Assembly (NCBI RefSeq): GCF_025024155.1
Contig: NW_026251712.1
Coordinates: 610,501 to 674,500, forward strand
Direction of reading: 5' to 3'
Length of the DNA stretch: 64,000 nt
From: Gamsiella multidivaricata
Taxonomy: Eukaryota > Mortierellomycota > Mortierellomycetes > Mortierellales > Mortierellaceae
The notes beneath the pieces were generated by a model. That model was not told the DNA's origin, searched no databases, and worked only from the letters and a program-made list of their open reading frames with translations. The position numbers and the translations under genes were made by a program. This document shows positions 25,776 to 39,129 of the stretch, piece by piece (the stretch's first letter is position 1; each line of letters opens with the position of its first letter).

Positions 25776-27119
<1,344 letters not shown>

Positions 27120-29476: not shown

Positions 29477-30275
29477 CTTTTAAATAACTACTGCGTTGTT
29501 GAGCAGATGCTATTGGCGACAGAAGGTTAATGCTGTAAGTGGCATGGCCTCTATGCGGCAGCATTTGGGTATCTGCTGGTCTAGAAATAGATGCGGCAAG
29601 CGCCTTGTTCGGAGGGCCTTTGTCGGACGGAGGAAGGGCAGTTGCAGTAACTTTGAACGTGGAAACGATCACCTGTTGGACTAGCTGGTGCTTGTCAACA
29701 AATTGAACTGGAGGGTAATTCCTAGACTGCCCCTGGAGCGAGGTACATGCTCATGGGTATATTAATGAGCATGGATTATGGACCATTGATCTCAGGGGAA
29801 AAATACAGGATTATAAGGATCAGAGCTTCGAGAACATCCTTCGCTGCAGTTGCAAGTAGACTACAGGATGGGGGAGCGCACATCCAGCCTGTCCCTTTAG
29901 AGATTAACAGACAATGACCCTCGGTCAAGAGGCTTCCCTATACGGGTTGGCAAGATCAACTTGTTTTGCCACCAAAGTGCTGCAGGATGTGGATGTTTGC
30001 GCGACATTCCTATGCTCTGCTCAAACATCCTTCTTGATATCCTGTATGCGTAATTTTTAAGGAAAGACTTACAAATTTAATTTTCTCTCATTAAACTACA
30101 ACCCAGGCTATTATAAAAATATATCGGTGTGGCTTTTTGTACTTTGATTTGTAATCAGAGGCGACTCTGAAAATCAAAAAAAAGGACGAAATCAATTATC
30201 TGACTTCAAAACGCACTTTCAGCACTTCACTATCCATCCTATATACCCTTATACCCTTACAACTTAACACCTTGA
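29477..30275. other. Intergenic, AT-rich to the right
   Basis: No gene supported. AT content rises from about 30050 onward. This stretch is the left flank of the accessory island and is where an element boundary would be expected, but I could not see inverted repeats or a target duplication. Confidence 0.45.
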
Positions 30276-31464
30276 ATGGATCATCAAGACCAATGGTTAT
30301 TTGGAAGCCAAAACGGAGAAAGCAGCAGCTCTGCTGCTCGTCAAGGTATTGCAGTTATTTGCTGGAATGTGTTAGTCATTGTCGCGCTCCAAGTCTTAGT
30401 CTCTTTTGTATGTACGTACTCTTGACTTTTACTATTGGCTAGGCATAAATACTGCTTATACCAACTACGAGGGTAATAGCAACGCGCAGGATGAAAGCAG
30501 CTATGCTGTCTTTACTGAAAGTGGTTTGCTTCCTTTCTCTATGGACAGCACTTGCAGCGTCCTTGTACATTGTCTTTTATCGCAATTCCCTTACATGCAA
30601 TCTCACCTCCTCCCTGTCATCCAGCTGCCGAAATAGGACAACAGCAATTACTTCCTGAAACATCTTCAGCTCTACAAAAGAGAAAGGCTCCGGAACGCCT
30701 GACAGGGCGGGCAGCTAAACAGACTGCTCATAACCAGTCCATGATGACTGCAGCAGATGTCGTTGCGCACCAGCAGCGGGAGCGAGACTATGCTCTTGCA
30801 AACGCATTGGCTGAAAGAGGAGCCGAACTACTGTTTGTGGCGGATCGGCAAGATATTCTTGCTGTATCGACGAGAAAACATTACCAACGATACCAGGCAC
30901 ATTGGATGGTCCGTTGCTTGATTCAACAGTACATAATAATCTGATCCGCAAAGCCTTTCGGCCTCGTTATTCATATCTTCATATCTTTGTCCTCTCTAGG
31001 CTTGGTGTAGACGTAAGAGATATAACGACGACATGAAAGTTACGCATGGAAAGTTCCTAACCTACGTACAGGAGCTGGTAGCTGATGAAATAGTTCAACA
31101 TGAGGACGACTACCACAGCATCAGGCCAATACGTATTAATACGACGGCGGATTATGAGGGCGACCTCCCTTCACCTGAAACCATTGATACATATGTGAAG
31201 GCTGTTGTTGATCTCTATGAGCAACAAAAGTCCATGGCTGGCCGCTCTATCGCACAAGAGAAAACCTCTTTGCGCACCTGCGGTGTAGGGGGGCTACTAA
31301 CGGGTTCTATAACTTCTACCATTAGTTCTATTACAACAAGGAATTACCACGCGAATAGGACTTCGGCAAGGGTGTGCTTCGGTCATTTACTGGTTCGCGG
31401 TGCAGGGTCCTCCTTAAGATCGGAATGTGTTGACACAAAGGTAAAACAGACTAGACAGAGATAG
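30276..31464 (+). CDS. Crypton-like recombinase N-terminal fragment
   Basis: Four exons, 30276-30345, 30443-30523, 30625-30908, 31000-31464, joined in phase to a complete 299-aa frame. Residues about 80-240 carry STRKHYQRYQAHWMAWCRRK, then VTHGKFLTYVQELVADEIV and LPSPETIDTYVKAVVDLYEQ. This is the helical SAM-like DNA-binding region that precedes the tyrosine-recombinase core of Crypton/Ndc10-type proteins, as I recognise it. The recombinase core with its R-H-x-x-R and Tyr residues is missing: after SMAGRS the frame runs about 65 residues of unconserved sequence to a stop. It is therefore a truncated, possibly domesticated, remnant. Two donors (GTTTGC, GTCCGT) are weak, so the N-terminal exons are less certain. 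Confidence 0.5.
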
Positions 31465-32179
31465 AAGGAAATAAATATAGCTAGGACTATGTTCCATTGA
31501 GAATGATTGGGGGTAGTTGCAAGATATTCACATATATGATGTCCGATGAAGTGAGAAGTCGTGACAATAAAGTCCACCCCTCTGGAGTCGTTGTATGGCA
31601 ATGTTCGCTGATCAGGCCTCCATTGTACCTTTATAATGCCGTTTCACGAGGGTAAGCCGATGACGGATGCTCAATAATGAGACGATCGGAGATCAGGGAA
31701 ACATTGCATTTGATAGTGCAAAGGTGGCGAATGATCAAGCTTGGCATTCTCTGTTGGTTGTATCTCGTTGCGTGGGTTGTTGACGACGGCAGTCAGTACC
31801 TGTCGATGATGCGGTGTTATCCGGACAATCTGGACGAATGCATACAAGATATATATGTGAAGAAGATTCTGGTTCAGGAACCAGACCGTTTATTCTTTTA
31901 TTCTGGGAGCGGTGCTCTTCCCCGTAATTTAATATCAAAAGTTCTCATAGGCTTTAGTCCTTTGAAGGTTGAGCGCGCTACTTGACTGATTTCCCTACCC
32001 TCCATTGCATCCCTGGCGACCTATCTAGATTTGCGCCTACCTACGTACGTTGGAAACAGCGAGGATGGCGATGTGGGTGGACATCTGTGTCAGGCCATGG
32101 CAAAGCTACTTGTATATCACTGATCGTGCTTCGTGTCAAGCGACTAGCATCTATCAGTGTGATGGCTCTTTATCAAAGC
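31465..32179. other. Intergenic inside the accessory island
   Basis: No recognisable coding sequence. Frames of up to about 100 codons exist on both strands but show no domain. If a recombinase core was once here, it is no longer readable by eye. Confidence 0.45.
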
Positions 32180-32297
32180 CTTTTGTTATTGTGGTAATGC
32201 CTTTCTTTATTGTGGAAAGTCTTTGTTATGGTGGTAATGCCTTTTTTATTGTGGAAAGTCTTTTTTATTGCGGAAAGTCTTTTTTATTGCGGGAAAG
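32180..32297 (+). repeat. Six-copy 20-nt tandem repeat
   Basis: Six imperfect head-to-tail units of 19-21 nt with consensus CTTTTTTATTGTGGAAAGT. Two units end in GGTAATGC instead of GGAAAGT, and the last two have TTGCGG. The array ends about 330 nt upstream of the nuclease start at 32624, in its presumptive promoter. Each unit has CTTT and AAAG ends that could pair. Confidence 0.75.
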
Positions 32298-32623
32298 CAG
32301 ACATTGCTTCTCGCCTATAAGTATTCTGCCACACACTTCACAGCTTTCTTCGCCACACTTTTCTTTCACCTTTTCACTCTTTCAGCGCAAGCGACACCAT
32401 CAACAGTACCTTTTCCTATCTTTTTCTACCTTTCGTTCATCATCCTTTCTCCTCATTGCCCTTTGCCCGCAGTTCGCTATCCATATACACCTTCACCCTA
32501 GATACTATACGCCTGTAGAAAAGGTAATGTACCCTCCAAGCCTATCCTTCCATATCTTCAGCGTTCTTACGAGAGGGTTTCACTAACACCGCTAAGCTTT
32601 CAACCCACCATAGTGATCACAGC

Positions 32624-33579
32624 ATGGGCATAAGAGGCCTTTACAGTGCTCTGAAGAAGCGCGGTTTGGATCCAGTTGCCGCGGATCCTCAGGATTACTA
32701 GAACCAATCTGTTGAGGTTGACCTCTTCGGCGCGTTTTATGGATCCCTCGTTCTCCAGATCACGGATGATTACGATCCAAGCAAGGTCCGAGCTGTCGGT
32801 CTCACGATGGCAGCGCGTTTGGCGAAGGACTTTACCCCTGCGCAATGTACGATTCACATCGATGGCGCCCCATCCCAGCAGAAGCGAAACGAGCACATCA
32901 GGCGAAAGAACAGACTGACAGCGGACCTCAAGAAGTTGCAAGCGAACTTGAAAGTCATGAGAACGAAGTCGTCGAACGGCCAATGGACCTCGAAGAGCGT
33001 GGTAGCGAAGATCAAGAAGGGCCTCCGTGATGTATACAGATTTGATACGGCCAAGCTGACACTCCGGGATGTCTTACGAGAAAAGGGGGTTTCTGTCTGC
33101 ACTTGCAGGACCGAGGCCGACACCTGCATTGCACGCACACTGACCATGACAGCCGGTAGCTTCGTGGTGTCAGCAGATTCCGATCTGTTGATATATCCGT
33201 CGGTCACCAAGGTTTTGCGGCCGATCTTCCACGGCTTGGCCTATGCGTTGCACACCAAGGAGAGTGTTACCAATGCACTTCAGGTCCCCAGCGCAGACTA
33301 TGTGACATTGCTGGGCATCGTGTCCAAGAACGACTATACCGAGAACATTCCCGGCCTTGGAATAGTTCGCAACCTGGAGATCATCCGCGCTCTACCCTAG
33401 TCGCCCGATATCAGCCATATGATCGATGCTTACAGATTCATGGCAGCCATCAAACCCCACGAGGTTATCGACCAGAGCCGATTCAAGTCATCAGAAGATA
33501 TCTTTTTGGATCTCGAGGAGAAAGTGCTCCAACTGCAGCGATTTGCCGTTGCCGCATATCAGCATGCGAGTAGAAGGTA
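32624..33579 (+). pseudogene. FEN1/XPG-family nuclease frame with two amber codons
   Basis: The frame begins with MGIRGLYSALKKRG, the XPG/FEN1 start motif, and stays in one frame to a donor (AG|GTAATT) at 33579. It is interrupted by TAG at 32699 and TAG at 33398. Between and after the stops, conserved features are clear: VEVDLFGAFYG (first metal Asp), CTIHIDGAPSQQKRNEHIRR (second Asp and basic helix), CRTEADTCIA then VVSADSDLLIYPS (acidic cluster) and YVTLLGIVSKNDYTENIPGL (H3TH). FEN1/XPG enzymes cut 5' flaps and bubbles in DNA. Conserved-looking sequence continues past both stops, so either the gene is decaying or the stops are read through or misassembled. A Fanzor-type sequence follows on the same strand. 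Confidence 0.7.
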
Positions 33580-33585
33580 ATTTAA

Positions 33586-34534
33586 GTGCGACACCACTTC
33601 ATTCACGCACGCGTTGTACAGATATCAAGTTCTCTAACACCTTTTGCATGGCGATGTATGCGTGTATTTACTAGCGCGGTTCCCTTCTACGTTGCGAGGA
33701 ACTCAAAGCGGAACCAGTTCCGGTCGATCTTTTCAGACAAGAAATCGATCCTACCGCGACAATCGATTGACTTCTCGACTGCCGTACCTCACGATCGCCC
33801 ACAGCCAAAAGCAAAGCCCCCCGTCAAGACTCGGAAGACGGTCGTGAAGAAGAAGGACAAGAAAAAGAAGAAGAGGGCACTGCCGAGAAAACGGAAAGGG
33901 GTGGGCTCTGCCGACCCATCGAACCCACGGCCCACTTCTGCAACTGCAGCGGAGCGCCGCCTCCGCAGGCTGCATATAACCAAGACACTCACTGTAGGGA
34001 GTATCCAGGCCAACATAAAGCGAATGGATCAGATCTCGGTTGCAGAAAGCAAGTTCCTTTCAGACAGGCTACGTTCAACGGTTGCGATCCTTAACGCGAT
34101 CCAGATGCATATGTATGGGGCTATTGCACTGGATATCGCGCGGCTTGTTCGTTCCAAGAACACAGCGGAAGGAGGATATTTCAGACATTCTCGACAGCAA
34201 GGCCTTCTACTTTGCACTCAACACACTCTTGTGCAGTGGTCAAGAAGGACGAGGTTCCCAGGCTGTTCGAGTATCAGCTGCCCCTGCGCGCAGAATGAGC
34301 ACTCGAAATACGCTGTTGGTTCCTGGCATCCCGCAACCGCAAGTACAGGCACAGGCACAACCACAACCACAACCAACAGCCACCCATGCCCGACGTGTCT
34401 TTGATGCGTACACGACGCTCACCGGCTTTGTCCCCTTTCGCCAACGAGAACCAGAGATGTTCCCTCCGACAGTCTCGAGGCTTGCTGTTGCGGCAGTCTA
34501 CAATGCAGCGCGAGTCCATTACTATGGCGCAAAG
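33586..34534 (+). pseudogene. Decayed linker/N-terminal part of the Fanzor-type gene
   Basis: Coding-like sequence continues from the XPG-type frame but changes frame several times. One frame carries a Lys-rich segment (VVKKKDKKKKKRALPRKRKG, about 33840-33900; a likely nuclear localisation signal) and a helical stretch up to ARLVRSKNT near 34165. A second frame then carries EDISDILDSKAFYFALNTLL. Near 34240 a third frame gives KKDEVPRLFEYQLPLRAE. From about 34380 the second frame resumes with RVFDAYTTLTGFVPFRQREP and ends at a donor (AAAG|GTATAT) at 34534. No GT-AG intron explains the internal shifts, so at least three indels are present. In family members this part would join the two nuclease domains or form the Fanzor N-terminus; which is correct cannot be decided here. 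Confidence 0.5.
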
Positions 34535-34625
34535 GTATATTAAAGAGTGTGCAAGATGTATCCGTTGTGTTCCTTGCTTTTCGGAGCACTAGTGTTGACC
34601 ATTAGTTCTTCAAATTCTTTAATAG

Positions 34626-36374
34626 TTTTCCGAGAACGAAGAGCGCCCCGAAGCTGTCAATCCGATCGACTACTTCTTCGAAAAGAATACCGAGAAGCGC
34701 ATGTTTGCAGACTTTGTCAAGGCAAAGTTTGCAGCTGGCTTCGTGTTCTTGTCAGAGGCGGACCTTGTCCATTTATTCTATACAAGCAATACGACACGGC
34801 CGATTATAGTCCGAATGCTGAGCGATACAACATCCAACGCTGCGGAAGCCAAGGTCGTCGGCAAGAAAGGGATCCTCATCGAGAAGCTGCTATACAGACT
34901 GGACCCAGCGACGCGCTTTGACGGGTATTACAGGAAGGTTTCGCTTCAGAGTGACAGACAGCACCACACAAGGTTCAAGCTTCGGGGCAGCATCTGCACG
35001 AATGGACTGGTGTTGCATCTTCTTGCGCATGACACAACGACAACGCGACGCCGAGCACCCCGCCAAAGCATCAGGGGCGATGACGACGAAGAAGAACACG
35101 ACAACGACGACGATGGCGACGGCGACGAGGATGTGACCCTGTTTCACGATGTTGACGGTGACTATGACCTCGACGACGCGTTTCTTGAAAGTGGAGGGGA
35201 CGAATCTGGTACAGATCCGGTCGCAGCTGCAGCAGGACTCGCCAAGGAGAAACGCATCACGCTCCCGTTTTCGACGCCAGAAAGTTCAAAGCGGCAGAGG
35301 CTGTCGATACACCAACTGCCACTCGTAGACCCTACTGCGGCTGTTTCGTCCTCGTCCAGCTCAGAAGCCTCATCTGTTCCAACGTCAGGCGCAGATACGA
35401 TCGATGTCACACGCAACACCATCAACTGGAAGCGAAGTTCAAAGATCCTAGAAAACGTGGAGGTGCGCTTCAACTCTCCTAGCACTTGTCCACCAGACGA
35501 TACTGTGGTCATCGGCATTGACCCGGATGAGGTTTACACAATGACAGCGACAAGAATCGACCCCGCCTTACCTACGAAAAGAGAGTCTTTACGGATCCGC
35601 AGGGCATTCCTCTACAGGCCTTACATGCTTTTCAAGCGTCTCCTAGAAAAGCAGAAGGCCGCGGCACGCATTGATGTTCTTGAGGCAAGACTGCCCTCAT
35701 TTACCGTGGAGAGGATCGAGGAATATCTGGCGTATCTTGAGGCACCTGGTACGGACGGCACTGCCGCGCCCACCACGAGAGTCTGCCTTTTTAACTTTTA
35801 CAACAGTCAGTGGATGCTAAGGAAGCGCTGGGATCTTCAAAAGGCTCAACAGGCAACGTATGACTACGCAGTTGCGGCCTTGCTTGACCTCGCCGTCAGC
35901 AAGGACTTTGTTGGTCAGCCGCTGAGCTCGCAGGATGGTGTAAAAGTGGTGTTTGCAATAGGATTGGGCTCTTTTGATTCGCAAACTGGCCTGCCAAGCA
36001 AGCATGGCGCACTCGAGAAGGAATTTGTCGGCAAGGTAAGAAGGAAAAAAAAAAAAAAAAAAAAAAGGGTGGCATACCATCTCTCATCCGCACTGCAACT
36101 TTTTCTCATCTGTTTATTTGTTCCTTGATGCTGCTGACAGGCAAAGGCTATGGGACACACTGTGGTCGGGGTGCACGAGTACTACACCAGTGCTCGGTGC
36201 CCTCGTGACAAGTGTATGGCGTTCTTAGAGTCCGACAAGAGGCGGTCAAAGTACTGCCGAAGCTGTCAAACGTTCTTTGATCGTGATATTGTCGGCTCTG
36301 AGATCATTGCCACCGTGTGTCTGTCGCAAATTCAGAACCAGTGCCGACCTGCCAAGTTCATGCCATCAACATAA
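34626..36374 (+). CDS. Fanzor (eukaryotic TnpB-like) RuvC nuclease, C-terminal part
   Basis: Two exons, 34626-36035 and 36141-36374, 546 intact codons in phase with the upstream donor at 34534. The sequence has the TnpB/Fanzor core. RuvC-I is TVVIGIDPDE, with the Asp codon at 35520. A strand GLGSFDSQTG has no canonical glutamate. VVGVHEYYTS follows, whose Glu (36177) fits the relocated alternative glutamate reported for Fanzors. Next is a zinc finger, C-x4-C (36198, 36213) and C-x2-C (36255, 36264), and finally FFDRDIVGSEIIA as RuvC-III. An acidic insertion (DDDEEEHDNDDDGDGDEDV) precedes RuvC-I. Bacterial TnpB and some Fanzors are RNA-guided DNA nucleases; activity here is inference. The C-terminal half has no stop or frameshift although its upstream part is broken. 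Confidence 0.8.
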
Positions 36375-36617
36375 TCATAGGGGGCCGGAACCCACTTTCA
36401 AAATTTGTAAGTTCAGCATACAAAAAATAACGTGCATGAACACCCAACCCATTCTGAATTCTAACCAGGCACTTTTTTACTTGATTTGGGTGATTTCTGG
36501 TAGACAGATACTGTAAGATAGACTCTCTTTCTTCTTCCCCTTTTCTCCCTTCTTTCCTATTCTTCACTCTCCCCATCATACCCTCTCACCATTCATCCCT
36601 CACCACCGAAATATAAA
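36375..36617 (+). other. Gap after Fanzor, candidate guide-RNA locus and ACOX promoter
   Basis: These 243 bp separate the Fanzor stop from the next ATG. In TnpB and Fanzor elements the guide (omega) RNA usually lies at the 3' end of the nuclease gene. The left half begins with a G-rich segment (GGGGGCCGGAACCCAC near 36380) that could form a short hairpin. The right half is a C/T-rich leader for the acyl-CoA oxidase gene. The RNA assignment is only a positional hypothesis. Confidence 0.25.
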
Positions 36618-39129
36618 ATGCTGCCGCTCAAGATAACCCCCGCCGACACCTCGTCCCTCTCCCAGGTTCTCGCGCACGACCATCATGACCTGCGTCGTCG
36701 CATGCAAGACTTTGCCGCCCGGGACCCGATCTACATCCCTCGATACGACATCTCCCTCGCAGCCACGCGCGAGCTAGCCTTCCAGCGACTCGACCGTCTC
36801 GCCCAACAGGGTTTCATCTCTGTGTTTGATTTCGAAAAGGACCCCCTACGCATCTTTGCCGCCCATGAAATGGCCGGCATCATCGACCAGTCCATGGCCA
36901 CCAAGATGACCGTCCAATGGAACTTATTCGGAGGCACGGTCATCAAGCTGGGCACGGAGCGGCATCGTGAGCTGCTGAAGGAGGTCGATGATTTGAGATC
37001 TGTAGGGTGCTTTGCTCTGACGGAGCTAGGCTTCGGAAATAATGCGATCGAAATGGAAACCACGGCGCACTATGTAAGGACCCCTTTGGAAAATCGGGAC
37101 ACCTGGAACTGGGAAGGCGATTAATTCGGTGGGATGGGGGAAGGGAGGGGGAAAGAAGAAATGGGTGTGGTACAAACCCCTCATATTATTCATGCATGAA
37201 GGTACGCACGCACAGAAGGACTAACGATAAAGTTCGTACCCTCTAGATTCCAGAGACGCATGAATGGGATGTGCATACGCCTACCATCAACGGCCAAAAG
37301 TACTGGATCAGCAATGTACGGAAAAACAGTGATTTTTTTTTTTTTTTTTTCATTCAAGTTACCCGTTTATTCCTCCCTCTTGTGCTGCATGGCCATGCAT
37401 ACGTGCTGACATTTGTTTTTTTTTCTCGTTTCTGGGGTGCATGTACAATGAAATACAACACATGGAATGTTCTGATGCATAGGCAGCCGTCGATGCGAAA
37501 TGGGCCGTTGTCTTTGCACAGACCTTTGTTCAGGACAAGAACGAGGGCGTGCATGCAATTCTGGTCCAGATTCGCGACAACAACATGTGTCCGACCAAGG
37601 GTGTGGTCATCCAGGATATGGGTGTGAAGATTGGATGCCAGGGCGTTGATAACGGCAAACTGTTCTTTGACCACGTCCGAGTCCCCGTCGAGAATCTCTT
37701 GAACCGGTACTCGGACGTCTCGCGCCAGACCGGCAAGTTCACCTCGTCCATTGCGAGCCGTCGTGGGTAAGAACGTGAAAGCAATTTTTTTTTGTCAATG
37801 TCGACCATTTCAACGGTTCCCGGCTAACACTTCGCCTCTTTTCGTCCGCTTCCGTGTTATATCATAGCCGGTTTCTCAAGGTTGCCGACCAGCTTCTGTC
37901 TGGCCGCCTCGCCATCTCGTCGCTCTGTCTGGGCGGTACAAAAGTCTGCCTCACCATCGCGTTCCGGTACGCGCACAGTCGTCTCTGTGTGGGCCCGAAC
38001 GGCAAGAGCGACACGCCCATCATGGCCTACCAGCTCCAGCAGCGCGCGCTCCTGCCACTCTTTGCCCAGACCGTCTGCCTGAACATCGGCCTCAATTACT
38101 GCAAGGAGCGCTGGTCCGCATCTTCGCTGCAGGCCTTCCGACAGCAGCGAGCTGCTGATGATGCTGAGGAAGTCATTCGACTCTGCTGTGTGATCAAGCC
38201 CCTCATCACCTGGAACGCCGAGCGTGTCGCAACCACCTGTCGTGAGCGCTCTGGTGGCCAGGGATACCTCTCTGTGAACAGGTTCGGGGAGGCGATTGGG
38301 TATGCGCATGCAGGTATGACGGCTGAAGGTGATAACAGCGTACTGATGCAGAAGGTTGCAAAGGAGCGATTGGCGCTGTTGCAGCAGGCACTAAAAAACG
38401 GAGGCACTGGAGTGGATATCGACTTGAAGGGATTGGAGCAGAAGAGAAAGAGTGCACAGGCGCTGGACGTGTTGTCCTTGGAGGGACTCTTGACGCTGTT
38501 CCAGTTGCGCGAGGCAGGACTTTTCCAGGAGGTAAATACCATTGCTTCATCTGTTTGTGCAGAATTCCTTGCCAATGTAAGAGGACGCCTTGCTTGATCC
38601 TAATGAAATCCTATCTCGGTTGATGTGATAGCTCGGTGCTTCGATGCAATCTAAGATGAGCAAAGGTAAAGCCCTCTTCGAGGTGTGGATGGGCGAGGAG
38701 TCCGACACAATCCAAGCGGCCGCAAAGTCCTTTGGCGAGCGTATGTCCTTTGAGCAGGTATTCAAGTTGGTCAGCACACTGTCCGGAGGACCTAAGACGA
38801 TCCTGGAGACCCTGCTCCGACTCTGGGGACTGACCCTGGTCGAATCTTACTCGACTTGGTATCTGACGCGAGGGCTCATTTCGATTCAGACGGCCCTGCA
38901 TGTCCCACAACATGTCCGCGATGTGGTTGAGTCCATTGGTATGAACAGTCTCGCACTGTGCGATATTCTCGGTGTCGACGAGCGCCTGCTGTTTGCACCT
39001 ATTGCAGGAAATGTAGGCGGCTGGGAGATATACAACAAGGACGATAACCACGGCGAGCTGATGGATATGCAGGACCTTGAGACCAAAGGCTTCAAGCCTA
39101 ATCGTGGTTTCGGAGTATCCAAGCTATAA
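36618..39129 (+). CDS. Peroxisomal acyl-CoA oxidase/dehydrogenase family enzyme
   Basis: Five exons: 36618-37073, 37247-37315, 37483-37766, 37868-38531, 38632-39129 (656 aa). The protein has the acyl-CoA oxidase layout. There is an N-terminal helical domain, then the flavin-binding [19 protein letters not shown] and [17 protein letters not shown], the middle beta domain ([20 protein letters not shown]), and the C-terminal helices with [20 protein letters not shown] and [17 protein letters not shown]. The last three residues are SKL, the canonical peroxisomal PTS1 signal. The reaction would be the first step of peroxisomal beta-oxidation, acyl-CoA to trans-2-enoyl-CoA with H2O2. For exon 4 I chose the donor at 38532 because it gives a normal-length intron and a collinear protein; GTAAGA at 38577 is an alternative adding 15 residues. 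It converges with the VTT gene. Confidence 0.92.

Follow-up and report, generated by a model that had tools for sequence, protein, structure and literature searches.

Organization of the locus

The DNA under analysis (hereafter, the window) is a stretch of 64,000 nucleotides from Gamsiella multidivaricata, located at 610501-674500 of contig C115 in an assembly of 37.5 Mb. Its plus strand harbors one copy of a repeated element, referred to as family 1, which embeds a gene where a region resembling the XPG/FEN1 5' nucleases precedes a Fanzor, i.e., an RNA-guided nuclease. The predicted product of this gene is probably a single, conserved protein of about 1,180 amino acids, composed of an N-terminal 5' nuclease of the XPG/Rad2/FEN1 family, a basic linker, and a C-terminal Fanzor. 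The gene is arranged as follows:

32624..33576, plus strand: exon 1, XPG/FEN1-like domain (5' nuclease), interrupted in the window copy by two in-frame TAG codons
33577..33674, plus strand: intron 1 (GT..CTAAC..AG, 98 bp), read from the sequence and from the comparison of copies
33675..34534, plus strand: exon 2, with the conserved FYVARNSKRNQFR block, the basic linker, and the beginning of the Fanzor half; the window copy has a broken frame here
34535..34625, plus strand: intron 2, from a splice-pattern scan and the reading of the sister copy C166
34626..36035, plus strand: exon 3, Fanzor body, acidic insert, RuvC-I and RuvC-II region
36036..36140, plus strand: intron 3, containing an A tract
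36141..36374, plus strand: exon 4, TNB zinc ribbon (PF07282, E 1.1e-8), glutamate six residues ahead of the ribbon, RuvC-III, stop codon

The XPG/FEN1 motifs that the first-pass annotation of this DNA had named (MGIRGL, starting at 32624, HIDGAPSQQKR, EADTCIA, SADSDLL, and NDY/H3TH) were all located in the frame 32624-33576, on the same strand as the Fanzor half, and the short spacing between the two halves to which it had drawn attention corresponds to the 98-bp intron 1, followed by the coding exon 2. The XPG piece of the window matches yeast Rad2 in the PDB (E 5e-6), its Pfam matches to XPG_I_2 (E 0.0032) and XPG_I (E 0.027) being both below cut-off; the zinc ribbon of the Fanzor half (34626-36374) is over the cut-off, and in the family of the window its first cysteine pair follows CxxxxC instead of CxxC. 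The window copy carries TAG codons at 32699 and 33398, a frame break inside exon 2, and an in-frame deletion of about 84 bp near 33527-33539 with respect to the sister copies covering that place; judging from these lesions, it is a decayed, dead copy, unable to make the fused protein. The A tract of intron 3 (36036-36066) varies in length between the matching introns of the sister copies.

A probable single gene encoding two nucleases

In the sister copy C166, the unedited genome sequence harbors one 1,174-residue frame, running from MGIRGL to the Fanzor stop through four exons and containing one in-frame stop; the joint at intron 1 stays in frame. When five copies were scanned with a fixed pattern, the donor of intron 1 was disclosed in four and the acceptor in three, the same splice signals being seen in most of the copies, and the coding block spanning the joint is kept in the annotated proteins P0001-P0004.

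The search of protein databases with the C166 reading gave four matches, the best one, from Mortierella alpina, having 1,186 amino acids and 40% identity across the whole query, while an alignment-based search retrieved four further proteins, one of which (1,121 amino acids) spans the full length. Seven relatives were scanned with the Pfam XPG_I model: in P0012 and P0023, both XPG_I and the TNB domain are over the Pfam cut-offs within a single chain, and in the remaining five XPG_I is either below cut-off or without a match. The database records of P0012, P0018, and P0023 already bear both Pfam labels; P0012 comes from Benniella and P0018 from Podila verticillata.

The first-pass annotation had left the choice between a single bi-nuclease protein and a tightly linked pair of genes. 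Since C166 harbors a single frame and annotated proteins of other species contain both domains, the single protein is favored; the intact relatives combining both domains in one predicted protein, which the annotation had proposed to look for, are present in other Mortierellaceae, and the contrary pattern, with the halves always in separate or oppositely oriented genes, was searched for and not found.

The protein of a second element family of the same genome (family 2, described below) was also used as a query, retrieving 45 annotated proteins from nine genera (Dissophora, Mortierella, Linnemannia, Benniella, Entomortierella, Gryganskiella, Podila, Haplosporangium, and Actinomortierella), all belonging to Mortierellaceae. 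The search was limited to relatives 0.55-1.75 times as long as the query and under-samples single-domain relatives and other phyla, so that no restriction of the fusion to Mortierellaceae follows from these matches. Many mobile DNA copies in this family carry a predicted gene that joins a Fanzor with a flap nuclease.

Conservation of active sites and folds

Sequence and prediction support the fusion, its conservation across Mortierellaceae, the completeness of the two active sites, and both nuclease folds. The alignment included 33 proteins chosen from the 53 found, and gaps were counted as misses in the whole-set counts. The seven XPG active-site acids, whose residue names we take to follow the FEN1 numbering, are retained in every row covering them; all seven are present in 21/33 rows, the others being gapped. 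Among the ungapped rows, the RuvC D-E-D triad shows the first D in 32/33, the E in 27/27, and the last D in 25/26, and the whole triad is found in 24/33 rows. All ten catalytic residues (seven XPG plus three RuvC) coexist in 18/33 rows, representing eight genera, and the TNB zinc ribbon (PF07282) was recovered in 25/33 relatives at E 0.01.

In the main text of a previous study (PMC10711439), a catalytic glutamate placed six residues ahead of the zinc finger is given as a mark distinguishing Fanzors from TnpBs, and a DPG at RuvC1 is reported "near exclusively" for Fanzors. The corresponding E-x6-C arrangement was found in the six rows inspected, in the alignment rows matched by pattern, and in exon 4 of the window; the RuvC1 motif is DPG in C166, P0001, and P0005, and DPD in the window copy, DPG being the form retained in the family of the window.

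Structure prediction recovered both a Fanzor fold and an XPG/Rad2/FEN1 fold, the best predicted fold matches of the XPG half being DNA enzymes. The mean identity is highest in the two nuclease regions (0.39 and 0.45), with values of 0.26-0.29 in the intervening stretch 261-640 and of 0.38 in 641-860, and the distances measured in the XPG and Fanzor halves correlate with each other (r 0.84, 30 rows, 0/2000 permutations). The codon-position differences between close copies, with an offset for exon 3 that differs from the codon frame, are weak and mixed, and for this reason no claim of selection is made.

Pairing of the two halves across the genome

The genome-wide search with the Pfam zinc-ribbon probe gave 109 matches, 104 of which are over cut-off. 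An XPG match is located upstream, on the same strand and within 7.5 kb, in 51/109 cases against 0.95 expected, which excludes a chance pairing; here, the 109 zinc-ribbon rows were compared with 87 XPG rows, i.e., the 78 mentioned below plus nine more, partly at the same places. As for the close Fanzor copies (at least 79% identity), the XPG half lies upstream on the same strand in 13/14. The same holds for 32/61 rows of a wider Fanzor set from this genome, in which 61/73 Fanzor rows were compared with 78/87 XPG rows, the omitted rows being extra pieces of copies already counted. The XPG-then-Fanzor order was also observed at L067, L068, L069, and L071 (four loci, belonging to three more distant families) and at L095. 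Thirty of the 87 XPG rows have no zinc-ribbon partner, and eight are close to a zinc ribbon with a different order or strand.

The elements carrying the gene

The other features of the family 1 copy of the window are the following:

30042..36515, plus strand: family 1 element copy, of the subfamily common to C175, with its 5' start near 30042 and a fixed 3' end at 36515
30618-30938 and 31000-31281, plus strand: two open reading frames of the 5' module
36375..36515, plus strand: 3' region, ending at the fixed right end; a putative guide-RNA scaffold would lie here

The left end near 30042 is placed by comparison with a single other copy, C175, and 12/15 copies (window included) align up to base 36515 at the right end; the last 15 bases are variant in C27 and C135, and absent from C50. 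At least two distinct 5' modules exist in family 1, C139 and C166 sharing another one of about 1 kb. The two open reading frames presumably resemble a Crypton-type (tyrosine) recombinase in its N-terminal part; no Pfam match to a Crypton-type family was obtained for the 5' module (30618-31281). Neither a transposase nor a target duplication was found in the family 1 copies inspected. Upstream of another family 1 copy, at L064 (C115:483800-486500), there is an open frame with a short in-frame tandem repeat, which we assume to be Tc1/mariner transposase-like; upstream of the copy on C93, which seems interrupted, lies a piece (L045, C93:1035837-1039094) that we take to be gypsy-type integrase-like.

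Family 2 (loci L071 and L091; C93, about 971,940-979,900) corresponds to a DNA transposon about 8 kb long. Its copies, about 99% alike, in several near-identical cases end contigs. Its 3' end falls on the same base in 13/13 copies inspected, with differing flanks, and its 5' start is common to four sites, the C93 copy having a short gap just after the start. On the strand opposite to the XPG-Fanzor gene, family 2 harbors pieces of a MULE-type transposase, with a SWIM finger over cut-off and a MULE domain below it (E 7e-4). It is known that MULE transposons generate target duplications of 8-11 bp. A 10-bp duplication, AGCGCTTGTA, flanks the C93 copy and is kept for 8/10 bases in C126, both ends being readable in these two copies; no obvious inverted repeat was found between the two ends compared.

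A retro-like movement of family 2, which the apparent 5' truncations and the fixed 3' end might recall, as after reverse transcription, was not upheld. Contig ends interrupt C111, C121, C88, and C62; in C131, C105, and C19, the 5' flank stops where a repeat known from elsewhere stops, and C126 is derived by internal deletion from the transposon of about 8 kb whose start is common to four sites; C98 is the sole copy whose 5' truncation stays unexplained.

Possible role of the fused nucleases

Judging from folds and residues, both halves are expected to be nucleic acid-cutting enzymes, the predicted Fanzor acting within an RNA-guided R-loop and the predicted XPG domain on 5' flaps, on bubbles, or at the edges of R-loops. 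According to what is known of its family, the Fanzor half would bind a guide RNA coming from the 3' end of the element, open the target as an R-loop, and cut it with RuvC. The cut non-target strand would then present a single-stranded 5' end at the R-loop's far edge, i.e., the type of substrate on which FEN1/XPG enzymes act, and the fused XPG domain would trim this end or incise the edge; the break might afterwards be repaired by copying, so that the transposon is kept or spread. It is known that such a free 5' end of the non-target strand is left at the far edge of Cas12-like R-loops. XPG itself has been reported to incise R-loops at one of their flanks (PMC7286691). On these two grounds, the likeliest use of the XPG half is tentatively considered to be trimming or incising the R-loop opened by the Fanzor itself. 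It is likewise possible, and we propose it with reserve, that the guided R-loop cut and the XPG flap or edge cut are the two blades of the same complex, and that the defined ends or gaps so produced favor the copying of the transposon into the cut site.

Several observations weigh against this proposal. The fused protein is known here from DNA sequence and predicted proteins alone, and no guide RNA was identified from sequence; the 3' regions do not fold significantly better than shuffles (z 0.17 for 36375-36515 of the window), and an Rfam scan of 29500-37000 of the window gave no match. No empty site was found for family 1, no match being obtained across joined flank pairs with 40/200 candidates scored, nor was a homing event seen among the copies. 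Since family 2 carries a MULE-type transposase, the fused nuclease need not drive movement. The RuvC1 motif over the alignment has P in only 5/33 rows and L (DLG) in 19/33, most rows outside the family of the window being DLG. Finally, 58/109 zinc-ribbon matches have no XPG match upstream, so that some Fanzors of this genome may be without an XPG domain; some of these matches lie at contig ends or are interrupted, and XPG was probed with two query proteins only.

The main rival, which we regard as unlikely, admits one protein, whose XPG half would remove 5' flaps during the gap filling that follows transposase insertion, independently of any RNA-guided cut. FEN1-type enzymes do act on flaps in such gap repair, and family 2, with its transposase pieces and 10-bp duplication, belongs to the kind of transposons whose repair makes flaps; however, the fusion partner of the XPG half is the Fanzor rather than the transposase, and the halves are still fused despite their divergence to about 39-45% mean identity. 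Rather improbable is a role of the XPG half in maturing the guide RNA, or in merely binding structured nucleic acid: it is established that 5' nucleases of the XPG/FEN1 family are able to cut structured RNA or RNA-DNA junctions, but the retention of the seven DNA-cutting acids in every covering row is expected of a working flap nuclease, and the predicted fold matches to DNA enzymes point in the same direction. Lastly, it is very improbable that two adjacent genes of one transposon, producing separate proteins, were wrongly joined by gene predictors: even though the fused models are predictions, the family 1 XPG frame, if unspliced, meets a stop inside intron 1, and strict motifs detect both halves in 16, XPG only in 9, Fanzor only in 17, and neither in 11 of the 53 annotated relatives (many rows lacking both halves being partial records or variants missed by the patterns), this is opposed by the well-formed intron and in-frame joint of several copies, by the coding block conserved across the joint in annotated relatives, by the 26/33 rows with three XPG acids and the Fanzor glutamate (besides the 18/33 with all ten residues), and by the constant spacing between XPG and zinc ribbon (median 3.0 kb, quartiles 2.81-3.19 kb).

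Comparison with known systems

FEN1, EXO1, and XPG/Rad2 are repair enzymes, whereas here a nuclease of this kind sits inside a mobile element; to our knowledge, no fusion of these nucleases to an RNA-guided nuclease is known. Family 2 resembles the MULE DNA transposons in its SWIM-finger transposase pieces and 10-bp duplication, and differs from them in the XPG-Fanzor gene on the other strand and in having no obvious inverted repeat.

In comparison with the Fanzor1 proteins PpFz of Parasitella parasitica (PMC11423790) and SpuFz1 of Spizellomyces (PMC10432273), as presented in the main texts, the Fanzor described here is preceded by a 5' nuclease of 300 residues, and RuvC-I is mostly DLG in its relatives. 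Most of these relatives combine DLG with the relocated glutamate, i.e., a mix of TnpB-like and Fanzor-like marks. The Mucoromycota Fanzor1 elements MCi-2, MuDR-type ROr-4, PBl-3, and MCi-4, according to the main text of PMC3627910, likewise place a Fanzor in a MULE/MuDR-type setting, their proteins being compared here by published description only, so that an XPG half might have gone unnoticed there. The Mucor element MCi-2 of Bao and Jurka, whose 3' part is fixed and 5' part variable, and which carries a partial Crypton transposase, is much like family 1, but it is described in the same text with duplications of 11-12 bp, none of which were found in family 1 (PMC3627910). ROr-4, PBl-3, and MCi-4 are reported there to encode no transposase, whereas family 2 carries transposase pieces (PMC3627910). 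The words XPG, FEN1, and flap are absent from the main texts of PMC10711439, PMC10432273, PMC3627910, and PMC11423790, and viral "candidate Fanzor flap endonuclease homologs" are mentioned in passing in the text of PMC11071296, with no fusion indicated there. No published description of an XPG-Fanzor single-chain fusion was found, most subscription journals and supplements lying outside the search, so that one may exist elsewhere. Taken singly, Fanzors, XPG/FEN1 nucleases, and the presence of Fanzors in MULE-like elements are already known; the single-chain fusion is apparently undescribed in the papers found.

Covalent linkage to a FEN1/XPG partner whose active site is complete would unite target finding and end processing in one eukaryotic RNA-guided protein; if the two-blade proposal is true, this RNA-guided nuclease would carry within itself an enzyme for end processing. 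Through the two active sites, what a Fanzor does for transposons becomes directly testable, and the arrangement could suggest editors making breaks with processed ends.

Neighboring genes

An ACOX C-alpha1 domain (acyl-CoA oxidase, E 4e-28) is encoded at 37779-38597, and the family 1 element ends about 1.3 kb upstream of it, perhaps within the promoter. On the minus strand of the window are located the exons of an ADP-ribosylation factor gene (25779-26087) and those of a ribosomal protein L7/L30 gene (23468-24127).
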